In this document: positions 4,428 to 41,303 of the stretch, one piece after another
How the letters are laid out: each line of letters begins with the position of its first letter
Numbering within the stretch: the first letter of the stretch is position 1
Assembly (NCBI RefSeq): GCF_015062935.1
Contig: NZ_SUTM01000023.1
Coordinates: 1-45,292, forward strand
DNA: 45,292 bases
Direction: 5' to 3'
Origin: Methanobrevibacter sp.
GTDB taxonomy: Archaea > Methanobacteriota > Methanobacteria > Methanobacteriales > Methanobacteriaceae
The notes under the pieces: generated by a model
What the model was told of the DNA's origin: nothing
The model's input: the letters and a program-made list of their open reading frames with translations, nothing else
The model's database searches: none
Made by a program: the position numbers and the translations under genes

Positions 4428-4807
4428 CATGCTTATTTTTAATTATACTAACTTAAATTCATCGTTTTTTATTCTAAATAAGTTTAAATCAATGTTTTTT
4501 GATTAAATAGCTTTAAATTATATGTAATTTTATATGATAAATGTTTAAATAATGGATTTTAGTTTAATATAGTTAAGTTACTTTAAATATTATTTCATAT
4601 TGTTAAATCCTTTTAGAGGCTTTTTCAACAAAAATTTTACTTATTTCCTTATTTTCATTAAGTTTTAGCCTTATTTTTAAAAAATAAACAAGAATAATGC
4701 TATTTTGGAAATAAAAAGGTTTATATAAGATATTTGTAATAAATAATGTTGAAGTGAGATGATAATCTCACAGATGTTTAAAAAAATTGTTATGGAGGTA
4801 AATTATT
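4428..4807 (+). promoter_or_regulatory. Long AT-rich intergenic region and leader of the wall-hydrolase gene
   Basis: About 380 bases with no convincing gene. A promoter is seen near its end: AAAAAGG then TTTATATAAG at 4720-4729. A small hairpin (GTGAGAT 4754-4760, ATCTCAC 4765-4771) would lie in the 5' leader of the transcript, and a strong GGAGGT at 4794-4799 precedes the TTG start. The part from 4440 to 4700 is extremely AT-rich and holds nothing I can name. Confidence 0.5.
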
Positions 4808-7800
4808 TTGAACAAACAATTATTACTCGCTGTTTTTTTAGTGTTCACTGTTTTATTTTCAGTCAGTGCAATATCTGCTAGCGATGTAAATGTTACAGAT
4901 TCATATGCTACTAGCTTAGTAGATGACACATCAGATGTATCAGTCCCATTGGAGAAAACTGCTGATTCATCAGAAATTTCTGTATCTAGTGATTCAAATG
5001 TTGATAATGATTCATCTAAAGTTTCTCTATCAAGTGAAGAAGTTTTAGGATCTGAAAATTCAAATACTTTATCAACTAACACGAATGAAAATTCTAATGA
5101 TGGTGTAAATGGGGTTATTGGTCTATCTATATCCGATAATTTGGTATATGGGGCAACCGATAATGTTTCTTCTACTGTAAAAATTGCAGACACTATCAAA
5201 TCAAGTGATGTTACTAAATATTATAAAGGAAGCACAAAATATACCGCTACATTTACCGACATTAACGGTACTGCATTAGCAAATACAAACGTAAAGATTG
5301 TGGTAAATGGCGTATCAAATACTGTTAAAACCAATTCAAAAGGTGTAGCTTCCTTAGCAGTCAATCTTAAACCTGGTACTTACAAGGTTACAGCAACCAA
5401 TCCGAGTACCAAGTATCAATTAACTACAACTTTTAAAATATTAACTACAATTAAAGCAAGTGATGTTACTAAAGTTTATACTGATGCAAAGAAATTTACT
5501 GCAACATTCTTAAAAAGCAATGGTAAAGCTTTAGCTAACAAAAATGTTAAGTTTAAGATTAATGGAAAAACTTATACTGTAAAGACAAATAGCAATGGTG
5601 TAGCTAGCCTTTCAATGACTAATCTCAAAAAAGGAACCTATAAAATTATTTCATATAACACTGACGGTTTAACTAAGAAAAATACTGTTAAAGTAGTTTC
5701 ATCTACTACATCCAAGTTAACCTCAACTGCTTATACATTCCTTAAAAGTGATACTAAAAAAATCAGAGTCAAATTACTCAATGGTTTAGGCTATGCACCA
5801 GGTTCTGGAAAAATTATTAAATTTACAATTAATGGAAAAACTTATACTTCAAAAACCAATTCTAATGGGTATGCATATTTGACATTACCTAACCTTGCTA
5901 ATGGAGTATACACTATAAAATATAAATTCGATGGAAATGCATTTTATAAGGCATCCAGTTCTACAAATAAAGTTACAATCATTCCAAGTAAAACAGCAAC
6001 TTTCACTGTAAAAAGTGATACTACCTATGGATATGGAGTAAGCAATACATTTAAAGTTGCTTTAACATCCGGAAGTGTGCCTTTAGCAAGTAAAACTGTT
6101 ACCTTGACATTGGATGGTAAAACTTATACTAAAACCACTGACGCTAACGGAATAGTGTCATTACCTGTCTCATTATCTATTGGTAAATATCCAATTACCT
6201 ATGCTTTTAAAGGAGACTCCAAAGTTAATGCAAAAACAGGATCTTCTACAATCACTGTTAAAGAAAGAGGAGCAACTACACTAACATGGAGTAGTGGAAC
6301 TTCATTCTACAGCGGTGCACAGACCTATAAAGTCTTGTTGAAAGATTCAAATAAAAAAGCATTATCAGGTAAAACCGTAAAATTAACTGTCAACGGTAAA
6401 ACATATACTGCAACCACATCTTCAACAGGTTATGCTACATTCAGCGTAAATGTTGGTGTGGGCAACTATACTGTAACTTATAAATATGAAGCAACTAGTG
6501 ACAATGACAATGCTCCAAGTAGTTCAAGCACTAAAATCAGTGTTGTGGAATCAGAATTATCCAACGGATACGGATACTGGGTTTTCGGTGCGGACATGAA
6601 GAAAGTGGACTTAAGCTCATTAGCTTCAAAAGGAACTACTGACATATTTTTAAACTTTTACGCTATAACTACTCACGGTAAATCAGCTGTTGAATCTTGG
6701 ATTGCATCTGCAAATAAGTTGGGACTCAGAGTCCATATTTGGATGCAGGCATTTTATGACGGAAGCTGGGTTAATCCGGTTAAAAGTGGATCTCCAAACA
6801 CTGCTTACTTCAATCAAGTAATTAATGAAGCAAAAACATATGCTGCAATTAATGGTGTTGCCGGAATTCACTTTGATTACTTAAGATATCCTGGTACCGC
6901 TTATAAAACTACCGGTGGAACAGCGGCAATCAGTCAATTTGCTAAATTAGCTGCTGAAACACTTCATAAAATCGATTCTAACCTTATTGTTTCATGTGCA
7001 GTAATGCCTGAAACAACCAGTAATATCTATTATTACGGTCAGGACATTTCAGCACTCAGTACCTATATGGATGTTGTAATTCCTATGGTCTATAAAGGAA
7101 ATTACGGAAAAACCACTTCATGGATTACTTCAGTAACCAAATGGTTTGTTGAAAACTCCAAAGGTGCTCAGATTTGGATCGGATTACAAGGTTACAAATC
7201 AGATAGTGATGTTACTAAATTATCCACAACTGATATAACCAAGGATGCTCAGGCAGCTATTACCGCAGGAGCAACAGGTTCAGTCATATTCAGATGGGGT
7301 GTAACAAACCTTGTTAACTATAATTCATTATCAAGTACATCCACATCTACAACTCCAACAACTGGATCTGTTAAAATTGCAGATATTTTATCTGCTGCAA
7401 ATACATTAAAAACTTCAATAGCATCAAGCGGCGTTGTACCTGAAAAAGTAACTGTTGCTGGAGTAAGCTATTCAACTCCTCAGTTCTTATATATGATGTC
7501 TCAGGCTATTGTTCTGATTGATTCAGGAAAAACAACTGCTGAAGTTTTACCTGTAACCGCATCAGCTCCTTCAAGTTCAAGTGGAGATGCTTCTGGTAAA
7601 TTGCTCGAAACAGATTATGTTGATGTTGCATCCAGAGTGGCTAGTTATATTTCATCTAATCAGCAAGCTCCAAATTACGCTAGTTCTGATTTAGGTAAAA
7701 TCAAATATGAAAATTTAGTTGATGCGTTTGCTAGAGTATTGGCATACTATAAGACAAACTCTCAAATGCCAAATTATGTTGTAATTAAAGAGATTTCATC

Positions 7801-8815
7801 ATCCACTAGCTCAACTACAACTACTACTCCTACTAGTTCCTCTGCAACTGCTAAAACCATATCAATCAAGAATATTTTAACCGGTGCTTCTAATTTGAAA
7901 ACATATATTTCAAATAACAATAAGCTTCCGACTACAGTTACTGCTGGCGGAATCACATTCACCACAGAAGAATTCTTGTATCTGATGAGTCAGGCAATAT
8001 ATCAAATCGGTAATTCAAATTCATCCAATATTGCTTATATCAGTGGTGTTAGTGCAGCTTCTTCTCCTACAGGAGACACTATCAGTTCAGAACAGTTAAC
8101 CAAGACAAATTATATTACTGTAGCAAATAATGTTGCAAAATTCATTGCAACAAACAAGCAAGCTCCAAATTATGCTTCATCTGCTGTAGGTAAAATTATT
8201 TATACTGAATTGGTTGATTCATTCTCACGTGTATTGGCTTATTATAATACCAATGGTGCTTTACCTAATTATGTAGTAATCACTTATGGATCAAGCAGCA
8301 GCAGTTCAACTGTTTCAGCTACAGGTAATGGTTTAAATCAGAAAAATACTGTAAGTGATGTTTCCGCTTATCTGAAATCAACTACCAACTGTCAAGTGGG
8401 AAATAGTGCAATCAAATCTATTGTTAATTCTCTTACTTCCGGTTTGACCAGTGATTTGGATAAGGCAAAAGCAATTTATAATTATGTAAGGGATCAAGTG
8501 TCCTACAGTTTCTATTATAATACAAAATACGGAGCAGCAGGAACATTATCTGCTAAAACAGGTAATTGTGTTGACCAAGCTCATTTAGTAATTGCTATGT
8601 TCAGAACTGCAGGTCTTGCAGCCAGATATGTTCATGGAACCTGTTATTTCACTTCAAGTGGAAGTACATACGGTCACGTATGGGCTCAGGTATTAGTCAA
8701 TGGACAATGGTATGTAGCAGATTGTACAAGTGCTAGAAATTCCTTCGGTAATGTAGTGAACTGGAATACAAATTCATTCACACTTCACGGAATTTACTCA
8801 AGCATTTCTTTCTAG
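4808..8815 (+). CDS. Secreted adhesin-like protein with glycosidase-like barrel, pseudomurein-binding repeats and PeiW-like endopeptidase domain, 1335 aa
   Basis: Modular surface protein. Order: signal peptide (about 1-24); a Ser/Asp-rich stretch; several Ig-like repeats of about 90 residues (about 125-580); a TIM-barrel domain (587-840) with the HFDYLRYP motif of GHL10-like glycoside hydrolases (Asp690); four helical pseudomurein-binding type repeats in two pairs (about 855-1165), separated by Ser/Thr linkers; and a transglutaminase-fold domain (1175-1335). The last has Cys1254 in GNCVDQAHL, His1290 in GHVWAQV and Asp1305 in YVADCTS, the triad layout of the phage endoisopeptidases PeiW and PeiP. 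The start is TTG after GGAGGT. It probably acts in the cell wall, as autolysin or remodelling enzyme or against neighbouring methanogens. The peptide-cleaving call rests on family motifs; the glycan-cleaving call is inference. Confidence 0.88.
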   Translation: MNKQLLLAVFLVFTVLFSVSAISASDVNVTDSYATSLVDDTSDVSVPLEKTADSSEISVSSDSNVDNDSSKVSLSSEEVLGSENSNTLSTNTNENSNDGVNGVIGLSISDNLVYGATDNVSSTVKIADTIKSSDVTKYYKGSTKYTATFTDINGTALANTNVKIVVNGVSNTVKTNSKGVASLAVNLKPGTYKVTATNPSTKYQLTTTFKILTTIKASDVTKVYTDAKKFTATFLKSNGKALANKNVKFKINGKTYTVKTNSNGVASLSMTNLKKGTYKIISYNTDGLTKKNTVKVVSSTTSKLTSTAYTFLKSDTKKIRVKLLNGLGYAPGSGKIIKFTINGKTYTSKTNSNGYAYLTLPNLANGVYTIKYKFDGNAFYKASSSTNKVTIIPSKTATFTVKSDTTYGYGVSNTFKVALTSGSVPLASKTVTLTLDGKTYTKTTDANGIVSLPVSLSIGKYPITYAFKGDSKVNAKTGSSTITVKERGATTLTWSSGTSFYSGAQTYKVLLKDSNKKALSGKTVKLTVNGKTYTATTSSTGYATFSVNVGVGNYTVTYKYEATSDNDNAPSSSSTKISVVESELSNGYGYWVFGADMKKVDLSSLASKGTTDIFLNFYAITTHGKSAVESWIASANKLGLRVHIWMQAFYDGSWVNPVKSGSPNTAYFNQVINEAKTYAAINGVAGIHFDYLRYPGTAYKTTGGTAAISQFAKLAAETLHKIDSNLIVSCAVMPETTSNIYYYGQDISALSTYMDVVIPMVYKGNYGKTTSWITSVTKWFVENSKGAQIWIGLQGYKSDSDVTKLSTTDITKDAQAAITAGATGSVIFRWGVTNLVNYNSLSSTSTSTTPTTGSVKIADILSAANTLKTSIASSGVVPEKVTVAGVSYSTPQFLYMMSQAIVLIDSGKTTAEVLPVTASAPSSSSGDASGKLLETDYVDVASRVASYISSNQQAPNYASSDLGKIKYENLVDAFARVLAYYKTNSQMPNYVVIKEISSSTSSTTTTTPTSSSATAKTISIKNILTGASNLKTYISNNNKLPTTVTAGGITFTTEEFLYLMSQAIYQIGNSNSSNIAYISGVSAASSPTGDTISSEQLTKTNYITVANNVAKFIATNKQAPNYASSAVGKIIYTELVDSFSRVLAYYNTNGALPNYVVITYGSSSSSSTVSATGNGLNQKNTVSDVSAYLKSTTNCQVGNSAIKSIVNSLTSGLTSDLDKAKAIYNYVRDQVSYSFYYNTKYGAAGTLSAKTGNCVDQAHLVIAMFRTAGLAARYVHGTCYFTSSGSTYGHVWAQVLVNGQWYVADCTSARNSFGNVVNWNTNSFTLHGIYSSISF

Positions 8816-36584: not shown

Positions 36585-39500
36585 TTGAATAAGCTTAAAT
36601 TAACATTACTGTTGTCAATATTCTTTCTGCTGATGCTAGTGCCGGCAGGTTATGCAATGGATAATGACACTGCGGTTCTTGGTGAAAGTTCTGCCGATTA
36701 TTATTTTGATTCAAATGTCGAAAATGATAATGGAGACGGATCAATATACAATCCCTACAAGACATTAACTTCCGATAGAATTAAAGACAATTCCATTATT
36801 CATCTGGCTAACGGAGAATATGAACTGGACTGGGGAAGTAATCCCGATAATGTGAGTATAAAAGGAACTGATGCCAGCAAAACTATCATTTCTTATTCTG
36901 GAATAGGTTTTGATTTAAAAGGTTCCCTATCATTATCAGATGTTACTTTAAGCGGTTTAGGAATAAGGGCTAGTGGAAACAATTTAACAGCAACAAATAC
37001 AATTTTCAAAGATTTCTCATCTGCCTCCAATAATGCAATCAATTCTAAGTCAAATGTTATCCTCTCAAACTGTTCTTTCATATCCAATTCTGCAGGTACC
37101 GGAGGAGCTATTTACATGAACGGAGGTACTTTGACTATTTCCGATTCACTGTTTAAGGATAATGCGGCCGATAAGTACGGTGGTGCCATTGCATGTGAGG
37201 ACGGTACTTATATTGAGATTGATGATTCAAAATTCCTCAATGATTATTCCAATGCAGAGGCAGGTGGTGCGATTTATTTAAAAGATGTTGAGCTAGTTGC
37301 AAATAATGTTGAAATAATCAACTGTTCCGCTCCATTCGGTGGAGCTATAGCTTCTTTAAACTCAAAGGTCTCTCTAAATAATTTTACCGCTAAAAACAAT
37401 AGGGCTAAATACTACGGAGGTGCTGTCTATTCATTGTATCATTCCTTTGAAATCACCCATTCAGCATTAACCAACAACAGTGCAGGCAATGGTGGTGCAA
37501 TATTTGCCGATGGCGTTTCTGACTTTATAATAAACAATAATGTATTCACTGATAACTCTGCAAGCATTGGAAGTGCTGTTTTTTCACAGATAAGTGATTT
37601 TTATTATGATTCCCTATATGATAAGGCATTGAATAACAAATTTGTCAACAATGATGCATATGTTAACAAAGGATTGAATTTAACATTTAATAATAATCAG
37701 CATATCCTATTCAAATTAAATGCATCCTATAACGGCAGTTTACCTTCTTATTATAATTTAAGGGATTTAGGACAGGTTTCCACAGTTAAAAATCAGGGAA
37801 GCGGAGGTAACTGCTGGGCATTTTCTTCACTGGCCGCTTTGGAATCTGCAATTTTAAAGTCCACAGGCATTGAATATGATTTATCCGAGGAAAACATGAA
37901 AAACATAATGTCATTTTATTCCACTTACGGCTGGTCAATGGAAAACAATGTTGGAGGATATGACAAGATGGCTGTAGGTTATCTAACCAGCTGGCTAGGT
38001 CCGGTCAATGAAAGTGATGATGATTATGACTCCAAATCATTATTGTCCCCATTGATTGCAAGCTTTGTCCATGTTCAGAATATTGTATTTTTAACAAGAA
38101 GTAATTTCACAGATAATGATGCAATTAAGAAATCCATAATGGATTACGGTGCCGTTGCTACAAGTATATACTGGTCAAGTTCATATCTCAAAGGAAAAAA
38201 TTACTATTATTCAGGATCTACCGGTGCAAACCATGCGGTAGCAATTGTAGGATGGGATGATAACTATTCAGCTTCAAACTTCAGGAACACTCCTCCGGGT
38301 GACGGTGCATGGATTATTAAAAACAGTTGGGGAACCAGCGGTGGAGATAAAGGATTTTACTATGTTTCATATTATGATACTAAATTTTCACAGCCTGGAA
38401 AATATGTTTCCTATGCCATTATATTAAATGATACAATCAAATATGACAAGATTTACCAGTATGATGTTCAGGGCAGATCTGATATCTTTTTAAATTATAC
38501 AAACACCGTCTGGTACAAGAATAAATTTGAAGCTACCTCTGATGAATATCTCTCTGCAGTATCAACATACTTTGAAAAATCTACAGACTGGGAATTATCT
38601 GTTTATGTTAATGATGCATTGAAACTCACAAAATCCGGAAAAGCCATAGTAGGTTATTCCACTATTGATTTAGGAAAATTCATTCCAATCAAAACAGGCG
38701 ATATCTTTGAGGTTGTCTTTAAGGTAACTGTTGACGCCAATGCAAGCGTTCCTATCTCAGAGGCTGTTTCATTCAATGAAGAAACATACCATGAAAATAT
38801 TTCATTTATAAGCTATGACGGAAAAAATTGGGTTGATTTCTATGATTTGGAATGGACATTCCCTGACCATACTTATGCATCACAGGTAGCATGCATTAAA
38901 GCATTCACTATTTCAAACCCTCTGAACACTCAAATTAATTTAACTTTAACAAACAGAGGCAAAAACAGTACAGATATAATTGCCACAGTTTTCGATGAAT
39001 ACGACAATATCATAACTCATGGAACTGTAGTTTTCTCAGTTGGCGGTGCTGAACGCACTGTAGCTATCAGCAACGGAATTGCAAAGTATTCTAATGCAAA
39101 AATAACTGACGGAATCAATAATTACTCTGCAAGATTCAGCGAAACAGGTTACAATCCGTCAAGCAATTTTGTTCTTGTATCCAATAATGTAATTGATACA
39201 AACATCAGTTTAACTTTCTCTTCTGTAGACGTTAATCCGGTTACAATTACTGCTAATATCAACGGCCAGAACGGAAATCCTGTGGAAGGTGGAGAAGTTG
39301 TTTTCACCATTGAAGGCGTAAACTACACAGTAAGTGTAGAAAATGGTTATGCAAGCTTAACCCATACATTCAAAAGCTTTGGAGTAAACAATATTTTAGC
39401 AGCATACAGGGATGCATACAGTTACGGACCAAGTCAGACAGAAAAGACAATTGAAATCTCACTTCACGATGCACGTGTTGACATTAACGTTGATTCCCAG

Positions 39501-41303
39501 TATAATCCTGTAACAGTTACTGTTAATGTGGTCGATGAGAATGGAAACAAAGTAAATGCAGGTAATGTGGTTTTAAAGATTGAAGGCAGCGAATATACTG
39601 TTGGCATAACAGACGGCAAGGCAAGCTTAACTCACGTTTTCACCAGGTTCGGCAGTCAAATCATCACAGCCGCTTATAGTGATGATTCATATAACTATAA
39701 TTCAAACAATACCCAAAAGGACATTTCCGTCAATTTGAAAAATACTAATTTGGAAATTGATCACGATTATAATGCAAACAACCCTGTTAATTTAACCTGC
39801 ACAATAACTGACGGCGATGGCAATCCTGTAGATACAGGCAAAGTTTATTTCAACTTTGGCGATGAAACTAGGGAGGTAGATGTTGCAGACGGTGTTGCAA
39901 GTATTGAGTATGTATTTAAAAACACTGGTATCAATGATGTTTCAGTTAGTTATGTTGACGGATACTACTATGCAGATTCTTCCAAGAATATCTCTTTAAA
40001 CGTATCTAAGATTCCTGTCGGATTATCTGTTGATGTAAATCAGATTAAAGATTCATTGACAATTACAATAAACCTTTCACAAGCTTTAGATGAATATGTT
40101 GTTGTTTATGTTAATGACGAGTACAATATATTGAAATCATCAAAAGGTCAGGCAGTATTGAATCTCAACAGCGCATATCCTGGAACATATTTAATCAAAA
40201 CCAATGTGAACAGTTTAATTTATGATTCAGGCATTGTAGAAAAAGAGTTCAAAGTAAAAGAAAGATCTACAACCATAATCTGTGATACATCAAAACTTGC
40301 TTATGATAAAGTTTTGCACTGTTCTGTTGTCCTGGAAGATGAATTCGGTTATGTTATTCCAAATTCTCAAGTTTCAATGACTGTTGGAGGCAAAACATAT
40401 TCCGCTGTTACCAATGAATCAGGTGTTGCGGTATTTAAGTTCACCTCAGGAATTGGAACTGCCAGTGCAGTATTTTCATTCAAGGGTGATGAGAACTATC
40501 AAAAATCATCCCTGACCAAAAAATTAACCATTGACTCATCAGTCCAGATGCCGACAGCCGCTAAATACACATACAATGCGGATTATGAAGTTAAGCTTGT
40601 GGACGGCGCAGGCAATGTAGTGAAAACAGAGGATGTAAATGTTCTTGTTGACAGCAAGGACGAATTTACAGTATCTACAGATTCCAAGGGCATTTTACAC
40701 TTTAACATATCATTATCAGTTGGAAGTCACACAATCACCGTAACCAATCCTGAAACCGGTGAAGTCAAATCTCAGACAATCAGTGTTGCTGCACGTATCA
40801 ACGGAAATAAGGCTTTGACAATGTATTACGGTTCAGGCTCAGCATACAAGGTCAGAGTATATGACGACAATGGAAATATAGCAAAAGGCGTTGAGGTAAC
40901 ATTTAAGATTGACGGCAGAATCTACTCAAGAATCACTGACTCCAACGGTTACGCTTCACTTAAAATCACTTTAGCCCCAAAAACATATACAATAACTGCC
41001 AGTTATAAAGACTACAAAGTGTCCAACAAGGTTGTTGTCAAACCGACATTGATTTTAAAGGATAAAACAGTTAAAAAATCAAAGACTTTCAAATACACTG
41101 TCAAACTGCTTAACAATAAGGGTAAAATTTTGAAATATAAGTATGTTAAAGTCAAGTTCAAAGGCAAAACATATAAGGCTAAAACCAACTCCAAGGGAAT
41201 AGCCACATTCAAACTAAAATCCTATTCAAAAGTAGGTAAATTCACATTAACAGCAACTTATGGTTCTGCAAAAATAAGTAAAAAGATAACAGTTAAAAAA
41301 TAA
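36585..41303 (+). CDS. Adhesin-like surface protein with papain-like (C1A) protease domain, 1572 aa
   Basis: Domain order: signal peptide (1-25, ending GYAMD); beta-helix of Asn-rich repeats (about 35-375, with GGAIYMNGG and GGAVYS turns); papain-like protease (about 385-605); a lectin-like beta domain (about 620-780); and about nine Ig-like repeats (785-1572). The protease has all expected residues: oxyanion Gln404, nucleophile Cys410 in GNCWAFSS, His550 in ANHAVAIVGW and Asn580 in IKNSWGT. No pseudomurein-binding repeats are seen. The last 100 residues are very basic (KFKGKTYKAKTNSKG), which may hold the protein to an acidic wall. Start is TTG at 36585 after TTGGAGGAAT. It probably cleaves host or neighbour proteins at the surface, but substrate is unknown. 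Confidence 0.9.
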   Translation: MNKLKLTLLLSIFFLLMLVPAGYAMDNDTAVLGESSADYYFDSNVENDNGDGSIYNPYKTLTSDRIKDNSIIHLANGEYELDWGSNPDNVSIKGTDASKTIISYSGIGFDLKGSLSLSDVTLSGLGIRASGNNLTATNTIFKDFSSASNNAINSKSNVILSNCSFISNSAGTGGAIYMNGGTLTISDSLFKDNAADKYGGAIACEDGTYIEIDDSKFLNDYSNAEAGGAIYLKDVELVANNVEIINCSAPFGGAIASLNSKVSLNNFTAKNNRAKYYGGAVYSLYHSFEITHSALTNNSAGNGGAIFADGVSDFIINNNVFTDNSASIGSAVFSQISDFYYDSLYDKALNNKFVNNDAYVNKGLNLTFNNNQHILFKLNASYNGSLPSYYNLRDLGQVSTVKNQGSGGNCWAFSSLAALESAILKSTGIEYDLSEENMKNIMSFYSTYGWSMENNVGGYDKMAVGYLTSWLGPVNESDDDYDSKSLLSPLIASFVHVQNIVFLTRSNFTDNDAIKKSIMDYGAVATSIYWSSSYLKGKNYYYSGSTGANHAVAIVGWDDNYSASNFRNTPPGDGAWIIKNSWGTSGGDKGFYYVSYYDTKFSQPGKYVSYAIILNDTIKYDKIYQYDVQGRSDIFLNYTNTVWYKNKFEATSDEYLSAVSTYFEKSTDWELSVYVNDALKLTKSGKAIVGYSTIDLGKFIPIKTGDIFEVVFKVTVDANASVPISEAVSFNEETYHENISFISYDGKNWVDFYDLEWTFPDHTYASQVACIKAFTISNPLNTQINLTLTNRGKNSTDIIATVFDEYDNIITHGTVVFSVGGAERTVAISNGIAKYSNAKITDGINNYSARFSETGYNPSSNFVLVSNNVIDTNISLTFSSVDVNPVTITANINGQNGNPVEGGEVVFTIEGVNYTVSVENGYASLTHTFKSFGVNNILAAYRDAYSYGPSQTEKTIEISLHDARVDINVDSQYNPVTVTVNVVDENGNKVNAGNVVLKIEGSEYTVGITDGKASLTHVFTRFGSQIITAAYSDDSYNYNSNNTQKDISVNLKNTNLEIDHDYNANNPVNLTCTITDGDGNPVDTGKVYFNFGDETREVDVADGVASIEYVFKNTGINDVSVSYVDGYYYADSSKNISLNVSKIPVGLSVDVNQIKDSLTITINLSQALDEYVVVYVNDEYNILKSSKGQAVLNLNSAYPGTYLIKTNVNSLIYDSGIVEKEFKVKERSTTIICDTSKLAYDKVLHCSVVLEDEFGYVIPNSQVSMTVGGKTYSAVTNESGVAVFKFTSGIGTASAVFSFKGDENYQKSSLTKKLTIDSSVQMPTAAKYTYNADYEVKLVDGAGNVVKTEDVNVLVDSKDEFTVSTDSKGILHFNISLSVGSHTITVTNPETGEVKSQTISVAARINGNKALTMYYGSGSAYKVRVYDDNGNIAKGVEVTFKIDGRIYSRITDSNGYASLKITLAPKTYTITASYKDYKVSNKVVVKPTLILKDKTVKKSKTFKYTVKLLNNKGKILKYKYVKVKFKGKTYKAKTNSKGIATFKLKSYSKVGKFTLTATYGSAKISKKITVKK

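Follow-up and report, generated by a model that had tools for sequence, protein, structure and literature searches.

Does a secreted wall protein of Methanobrevibacter carry an enzyme that cuts the sugar chain of pseudomurein? The question is raised by one gene in a 45,292-nucleotide stretch of Methanobrevibacter sp. DNA, referred to here as the window. An earlier note on this DNA described a glycosidase-like barrel fused to wall-binding repeats and a cysteine domain, and proposed the barrel as a candidate glycan cutter. Pseudomurein consists of GlcNAc and N-acetyl-talosaminuronic acid joined by β-1,3 links, and little was known of wall-degrading lysins in methanogens according to a 2010 review (PMC2989375). 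The pseudomurein-opening enzymes described in the available open-licence PMC literature cut the peptide. That literature, as distinct from subscription papers, yielded no report of an enzyme cleaving the pseudomurein glycan, in agreement with the earlier note. A survey of Methanobrevibacter smithii adhesins lists one 'Putative glycosyl hydrolase domain' and, separately, a group of transglutaminases with PMBR repeats (PMC11532034).

Organization of the gene and its product

The gene and its features are located in the window as follows.

4794..4799, + strand: GGAGGT ribosome-binding site, eight bases 5' of the TTG start (sequence reading)
4808..8815, + strand: whole gene, encoding a 1335-aa secreted wall protein, TTG start (ORF call and Pfam scan)
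4808..4882, + strand: probable signal peptide, aa 1-25 (hydrophobic N-terminus by inspection)
5200..6540 (approximate limits), + strand: tandem Ig-like domains of Big_3_5/Big_1 type (PF16640)
6560..7330, + strand: glycosidase-like TIM barrel of the PF13200 family, aa 587-841 (Pfam, family profile, model, fold matches)
6875..6877, + strand: Asp690, end of β-4, in HFDYLRYP; proposed main catalytic acid (Asp in 80/80)
7010..7012, + strand: Glu735, just past β-5; proposed second catalytic acid (Glu in 79/80, Asp in 1)
7070..7072, + strand: Asp755 (invariant, 80/80)
7610..7786, + strand: first PMBR block, aa 935-957 and 963-993 (local profile, Pfam)
7859..8281, + strand: second PMBR block, aa 1018-1045 and 1128-1158 (local profile, Pfam)
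8291..8812, + strand: transglutaminase-core / Pei-like C-terminal cysteine domain (Pfam, model, fold search, PHROG)
8567..8569, + strand: Cys1254 of the Cys1254-His1290-Asp1305 triad (invariant, 19/19)
8675..8677, + strand: His1290 of the triad (invariant, 19/19)
8720..8722, + strand: Asp1305 of the triad (invariant, 19/19)

When the whole protein was scanned with Pfam, Big_3_5 (PF16640) scored 69.7 bits against a cut-off of 35.5 in 4 stretches. PMBR (PF09373) scored 108.6 bits, above its cut-off of 24.9, also in 4 stretches, so the fusion of wall-binding repeats to the barrel was confirmed. PMBR repeats bind pseudomurein. The barrel, which the earlier note had placed at 6566-7330, was recovered at 6560-7330 by the family profile, and the HFDYLRYP motif is present with the codon for Asp690 at 6875. 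Elsewhere in the window (36585-41303) a 1572-aa surface protein combines a papain-family protease, a lectin-like domain and Ig-like repeats (Pfam).

Sequence family of the barrel

The barrel was assigned to PF13200 (DUF4015), the Pfam 'Putative glycosyl hydrolase domain'. The cut-off of 27 was cleared with 37.9 bits using the whole protein and 41.3 bits using the barrel alone, and 77/80 barrel family members matched PF13200 at E<=0.01. A profile made from A2, an 80-row alignment of non-redundant barrel relatives, picked up PDB 4s1a, which resembles a PF13200 member. No characterised member of PF13200 was found in the open-licence PMC literature. In spore-forming bacteria the domain fused to DUF4015 is described as one that is found with polysaccharide deacetylases as well (PMC12700454).

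The description of the barrel as GHL10-like failed by sequence. The window barrel had no match to PF02638 at E<=0.01, 11/80 relatives matched, and only L110 cleared the PF02638 cut-off among the relatives scanned with Pfam. Weak sequence matches to GH18 were seen in 48/80 barrel rows, with further weak ones among PDB entries. A GH18 chitinase was rejected, as the general-acid Glu, two residues past the last Asp of DxxDxDxE, is missing in 80/80. When the barrel is aligned with GH18, Asp690 takes the place of the motif's final Asp. The residue opposite the acid Glu is 692, which is L, V, I, M, A or T and is Glu in 0/80. Because the GH18 acid position is never Glu, the barrel is not GH18 and the second acid should lie elsewhere, Glu735 being the obvious choice. 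Polysaccharide-lyase chemistry was discounted on theoretical grounds, because no leaving group is present at C4 of a 3-linked uronic acid.

Predicted fold and active site

A2 served as input for an AlphaFold2 model of the barrel, which has eight barrel strands, a mean pLDDT of 96.4 and a pTM of 0.93. Foldseek with this model placed Cwp19 first (E 9e-10) and PgaB second. VIA-align scored the two as a tie: Cwp19 had Z 22.9 (rmsd 3.4 over 254 aligned positions) and PgaB had Z 22.0 (rmsd 2.9 over 252). By fold, the relatives are enzymes of the cell wall or of N-acetylglucosaminoglycan; chitinase-like lectins (the YKL-40 group and RobpsCRA) were also among the matches. The structural features of GHL10, a TIM barrel, an Asp-Tyr past β-4 and the fold of Cwp19, the closest solved fold, are all present in the modelled window barrel, and the GHL10 label holds at the level of the fold only.

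The earlier note had looked to the catalytic acids of a modelled site. Both candidate acids are there, Asp690 (80/80) where strand 4 ends and Glu735 (79/80) where strand 5 ends, and both are invariant too in a 10-row alignment of viral and host barrels. Tyr691 and Arg693 are invariant in 80/80 rows each. The f3 barrels and some f1 barrels (L085-L088, L106-L108, L111, L112) are ∼330–350 residues long against ∼255, which suggests an insertion of ∼90 residues.

The C-terminal cysteine domain

Pfam identified the C-terminal domain as Transglut_core (PF01841) with 83.7 bits, above the cut-off of 23. Peptidase_C71 scored 16.9 bits, under its cut-off of 22, and reached 23.7 in a relative, L113. A profile search with the domain retrieved 3isr (E 6.5e-15), PeiW (E 7.9e-7) and PeiP (E 6.6e-6). 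The domain was modelled with a pLDDT of 94.3, and a fold search matched 3isr, TglA, PeiP (E 1.7e-5) and PeiW (E 5.8e-5). The best fold match was 3isr, a transglutaminase-like enzyme, ahead of PeiP and PeiW. The domain also matched the PHROG pseudomurein endoisopeptidase (E 1.9e-6). The earlier note had called this a PeiW-type Cys-His-Asp domain: the triad and the profile and fold resemblance stand, while membership in C71 gives way to Transglut_core in Pfam. The domain is a transglutaminase core that is PeiW-like at the profile and fold level only.

Distribution and architecture of cellular relatives

A relative of the barrel was found in 133/151 genomes of the phylum and in 20/20 genera, and such recurrence is not due to chance. 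The named barrel loci are almost all from Methanobrevibacter. The barrel was absent from 18/151 phylum genomes even when the 80-row profile was used, which rules out a phylum-wide need for it. Five of these 18 (G017, G019, G033, G143, G145) have a completeness of 90% or more and a contamination of 5% or less, so the barrel is dispensable. A strong transglutaminase homologue (E<=1.2e-57) is kept in 17/18 barrel-less genomes, the remaining genome, G048, having a match of only E 5e-16. G048 is filed under the genus of the window; it has no PMBR, no barrel and this weak transglutaminase match, its contamination is 9%, and it is possibly mis-binned.

PMBR was detected in 11/12 phylum genomes tested, in 0/11 genomes of archaea from outside it and in 0/14 control genomes. 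PF13200 was found in 1/11 and 1/14 of the latter two sets. The transglutaminase profile matched 5/11 archaeal genomes outside the phylum and is non-specific. One archaeon outside the phylum has a PF13200 domain (G160:C35:21909-22382, E 3e-17) within a 2707-aa frame.

Domain architecture was counted in 132 distinct barrel ORFs from cellular loci plus one viral locus, which are the best-scoring loci rather than a random sample, using a PMBR profile built from 11 seeds. A C-terminal transglutaminase-type domain occurs in 48/132, and PMBR is present in 48/48 of those. Among the 76 complete ORFs, PMBR is accompanied by the C-terminal domain in 22 and occurs without it in 8, and the other 46 lack both; the barrel is therefore not always directed to pseudomurein by repeats of its own. 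The triple fusion of barrel, PMBR and transglutaminase-type domain was found in Methanobrevibacter-type genomes, other f1 genera, f3 and one f4 genome (G138), whose C-terminal domain is above the Peptidase_C71 cut-off, and thus extends to the deepest branches sampled. Barrel plus PMBR is present in all four families sampled, f2, f3 and f4 included. The repeats lie ahead of the barrel in L104 (f2), and eight of them lie behind it in G150.

The genome of the window has two more barrels, an Ig-like plus barrel tandem that lacks PMBR and the C-terminal domain. This pair lies at G000:C2:153932-156225 (L002, L003), and many relatives have similar ones. In a quick tree of 112 rows the window barrel groups among the fused forms, and a separate Ig-only paralogue clade (SH-aLRT 98) contains 36 rows from Methanobrevibacter and relatives. 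Architecture, tree and the pattern of absence across genomes together indicate that the barrel is old, movable and dispensable.

Barrels on viral and bacterial contigs

Scanning viral contigs with the A2 profile generated 12 loci, eight of them at 36–52% identity. Further viral scans returned the same eight contigs and one short distant match. In 7/8 viral contigs the barrel is fused to or lies beside a C39- or C71-like cysteine peptidase, two unrelated peptidase types. PMBR is found in 6/8 viral barrel ORFs, five above the Pfam cut-off and one (L146) below it at 18.2 bits. L143, L144, L146 and L147 have ORFs of ∼600 aa in which the barrel is followed by PMBR and then a cysteine domain with a C39 pattern; this domain, tested alone in L144, L146 and L147, gave E 0.009–0.022, below the Pfam cut-off. 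L144 matched PDB 22oc (E 6e-23) and L147 matched PHROG endolysins. L142 joins the barrel to a Pei-like domain (C71 E 0.015, below the Pfam cut-off), and in L145, the same contig as L071, 84 bp separate the end of the barrel ORF from a following ORF with a Pei-like domain like that of L142.

Two viral ORFs, at L148:3624-4709 and L149:1784-2782, consist of PMBR and barrel only and are ∼330–360 aa long. The L149 ORF overlaps a PMBR plus C39 ORF that resembles PeiR (PF03412 E 4.5e-11, PDB 8z4h E 2.5e-10), with a portal gene further on. The gene order in L148 is terminase, portal, PMBR plus barrel and a Mu-F-like head gene, and no peptidase was seen. A local PMBR profile applied to 13 viral loci (1011 frames of at least 50 aa) matched four barrel ORFs and, weakly, one frame of 53 residues. 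A tblastn search of INPHARED phages with the barrel gave no match, and neither the L144 lysin nor the L071 barrel had a match in PHROGs. Because of their PMBR and Pei-like domains, the eight contigs are predicted to infect methanogens, and their barrel proteins appear to have the typical lysin build, a glycan cutter plus a peptide cutter.

Other viral observations were made. L150, L151, L152 and L153 carry very distant barrels (19–31%), two of them with Chlam_PMP repeats, and in L151 a C39-like stretch shares the ORF with the barrel. The region L071:1-3981 is a series of ∼150-aa ORFs, most starting with MKDNNN or MKDTNN, which are probably virion fibre modules; L143 and L144 have comparable series of 140–160-aa ORFs.

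Stand-alone barrels with a signal-peptide-like N-terminus were found on two rumen bacterial contigs (L046:4836-5744 and L050:4698-5858) filed as Verrucomicrobia and Kiritimatiellae. The two are sisters (SH-aLRT 100) within the Methanobrevibacter fused group of the tree. The L046 barrel adjoins a Clp-type ATPase (Pfam) and a TrpB-like gene (by inspection); the neighbours of L050 are less diagnostic. Contamination was rejected as the source of the L046 barrel, as its neighbours look truly bacterial, and they make lateral transfer from methanogens into rumen bacteria likely.

Proposed function of the barrel

Judging from sequence and model, the PF13200 barrel is probably a lysin or autolysin with a putative pseudomurein glycan-cleaving activity. 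That viruses put the same barrel in wall-dissolving proteins suggests that it cuts the sugar chain of the archaeal wall. The candidacy put forward in the earlier note is thus strengthened by the predicted acids, the fold relatives, the viral lysin-type proteins and the order-wide fusions. The window protein would be a pseudomurein autolysin or remodelling enzyme that is secreted, stays bound to the wall and has two catalytic domains. Its PMBR repeats, annotated here and assigned their function from the PMBR literature, would keep it on pseudomurein. Conservation and fold suggest that the barrel would cleave the β-1,3-linked glycan of GlcNAc and N-acetyl-talosaminuronic acid. Asp690 on β-4 would attack or steer at the anomeric centre, and Glu735 on β-5 would act as general acid/base. 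The Cys-His-Asp domain may act on the peptide cross-link, either cutting or forming it. Methanogen viruses, whose domains were observed directly, presumably combine this barrel with other peptidases in lysis or entry enzymes.

The barrel could instead be a glycosidase whose main substrate is another polymer, such as host glycans, the peptidoglycan of bacteria or a polysaccharide of the surface or of biofilms; PMBR would then only anchor it on the wall of the producer. The Ig-like plus barrel proteins without PMBR are common enough (46/76 complete ORFs, the 36-row paralogue clade included) to give this weight, as do the two stand-alone bacterial barrels and the structural tie between Cwp19 and PgaB, an enzyme of biofilm polysaccharide. 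Against that, the barrel occurs with PMBR in all four families sampled, the f2, f3 and f4 branches included, and in 6/8 viral contigs, and its viral partners are of the pseudomurein-peptidase type; we consider another main substrate unlikely. Still less probable is a non-catalytic sugar-binding module, like the chitinase-like proteins that keep the fold but not the acid. The fold search did return such lectins (the YKL-40 group and RobpsCRA), and none of the 80 rows has Glu at the general-acid position of GH18. Yet 79/80 rows, across host and virus lineages, retain another pair of acids, Asp690/Glu735, and a mere sugar binder would hardly need it. The two viral ORFs made of wall-binding repeats and a barrel, with nothing more, also speak against this reading.

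Least probable of all, and by our estimate a long shot, is a role for the entire protein in wall assembly, in which the C-terminal transglutaminase forms cross-links and the barrel trims or merely recognises nascent glycan. In favor of it, the top fold match of the C-terminal domain is the transglutaminase-like 3isr, and a pangenome study put forward the exported transglutaminase group OG0000044 as a pseudomurein cross-linker (PMC11915815). However, the cutting enzymes PeiP and PeiW are also significant matches by both fold and profile, and the viral barrels go with peptidase-type partners.

We therefore favor a glycan cutter, a cell-wall glycosidase of PF13200 with a GHL10-like fold that is probably directed at pseudomurein. 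More tentatively, and with somewhat worse than even chances, the barrel may found a family of enzymes that cleave the pseudomurein glycan, as an archaeal equivalent of the lysozyme-type autolysins and endolysins. Such a family would serve methanogens in wall remodelling and viruses in breaching the wall, with C39 or C71 peptidases or with wall-binding repeats alone, and would have been captured by rumen bacteria, perhaps to attack or scavenge methanogens. A glycan cutter, if true, would help explain sacculus remodelling and division, supply a missing tool for solving pseudomurein glycan structure and for methanogen lysis, and give efforts to reduce methane from the rumen a second target. The viral PMBR plus barrel proteins make the question directly testable, with no peptidase interfering.

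Comparison with known systems

Cwp19 of Clostridioides difficile is described as a surface-anchored GHL10 lytic transglycosylase and autolysin with the active site Asp196-Tyr197 and, according to its authors, no clear second acid (PMC5765458, PMC6016235). It is the best fold match to the window barrel by two programs and shares the Asp-Tyr past β-4 (Asp690-Tyr691 here). Like the window protein, it is a surface protein with repeated wall-binding modules. The window barrel differs in belonging to PF13200 rather than PF02638, in its archaeal wall, in the extra Glu735, for which the available text on Cwp19 names no counterpart (PMC5765458, PMC6016235), and in the fused cysteine domain. Because talosaminuronic acid has no 6-OH, a 1,6-anhydro product of the Cwp19 type would be possible on pseudomurein only at GlcNAc. 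On chemical grounds a hydrolase using Asp690 and Glu735 seems the simpler guess.

DigH of E. coli is presumably a GHL10 member and is not known to have wall-binding repeats or a peptidase domain. It is described as a glycosyl hydrolase whose target is denuded glycan of the cell wall (PMC12288456). Its substrate is bacterial murein, whereas an archaeal wall is proposed for the window barrel. PgaB acts on a biofilm polysaccharide, and we take its C-terminal domain to be GHL13, that is, GH153. Its fold ties with that of Cwp19 as a match to the window barrel, and it has Asp466 on β-4. The PgaB Glu607 is on β-7 (PMC5765458), whereas the second acid of the PF13200 barrel is predicted past β-5.

In a provirus of Methanobrevibacter ruminantium the lytic enzyme is PeiR, a PMBR plus C39 protein (PMC6189367). 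PeiR (C39) and PeiW and PeiP (Peptidase_C71) resemble the window protein in having PMBR and a catalytic cysteine domain with a C-H-D triad. They cut peptide rather than glycan and have no barrel. In the viral relatives the barrel is fused to or lies beside domains of the PeiW/PeiP or PeiR type.
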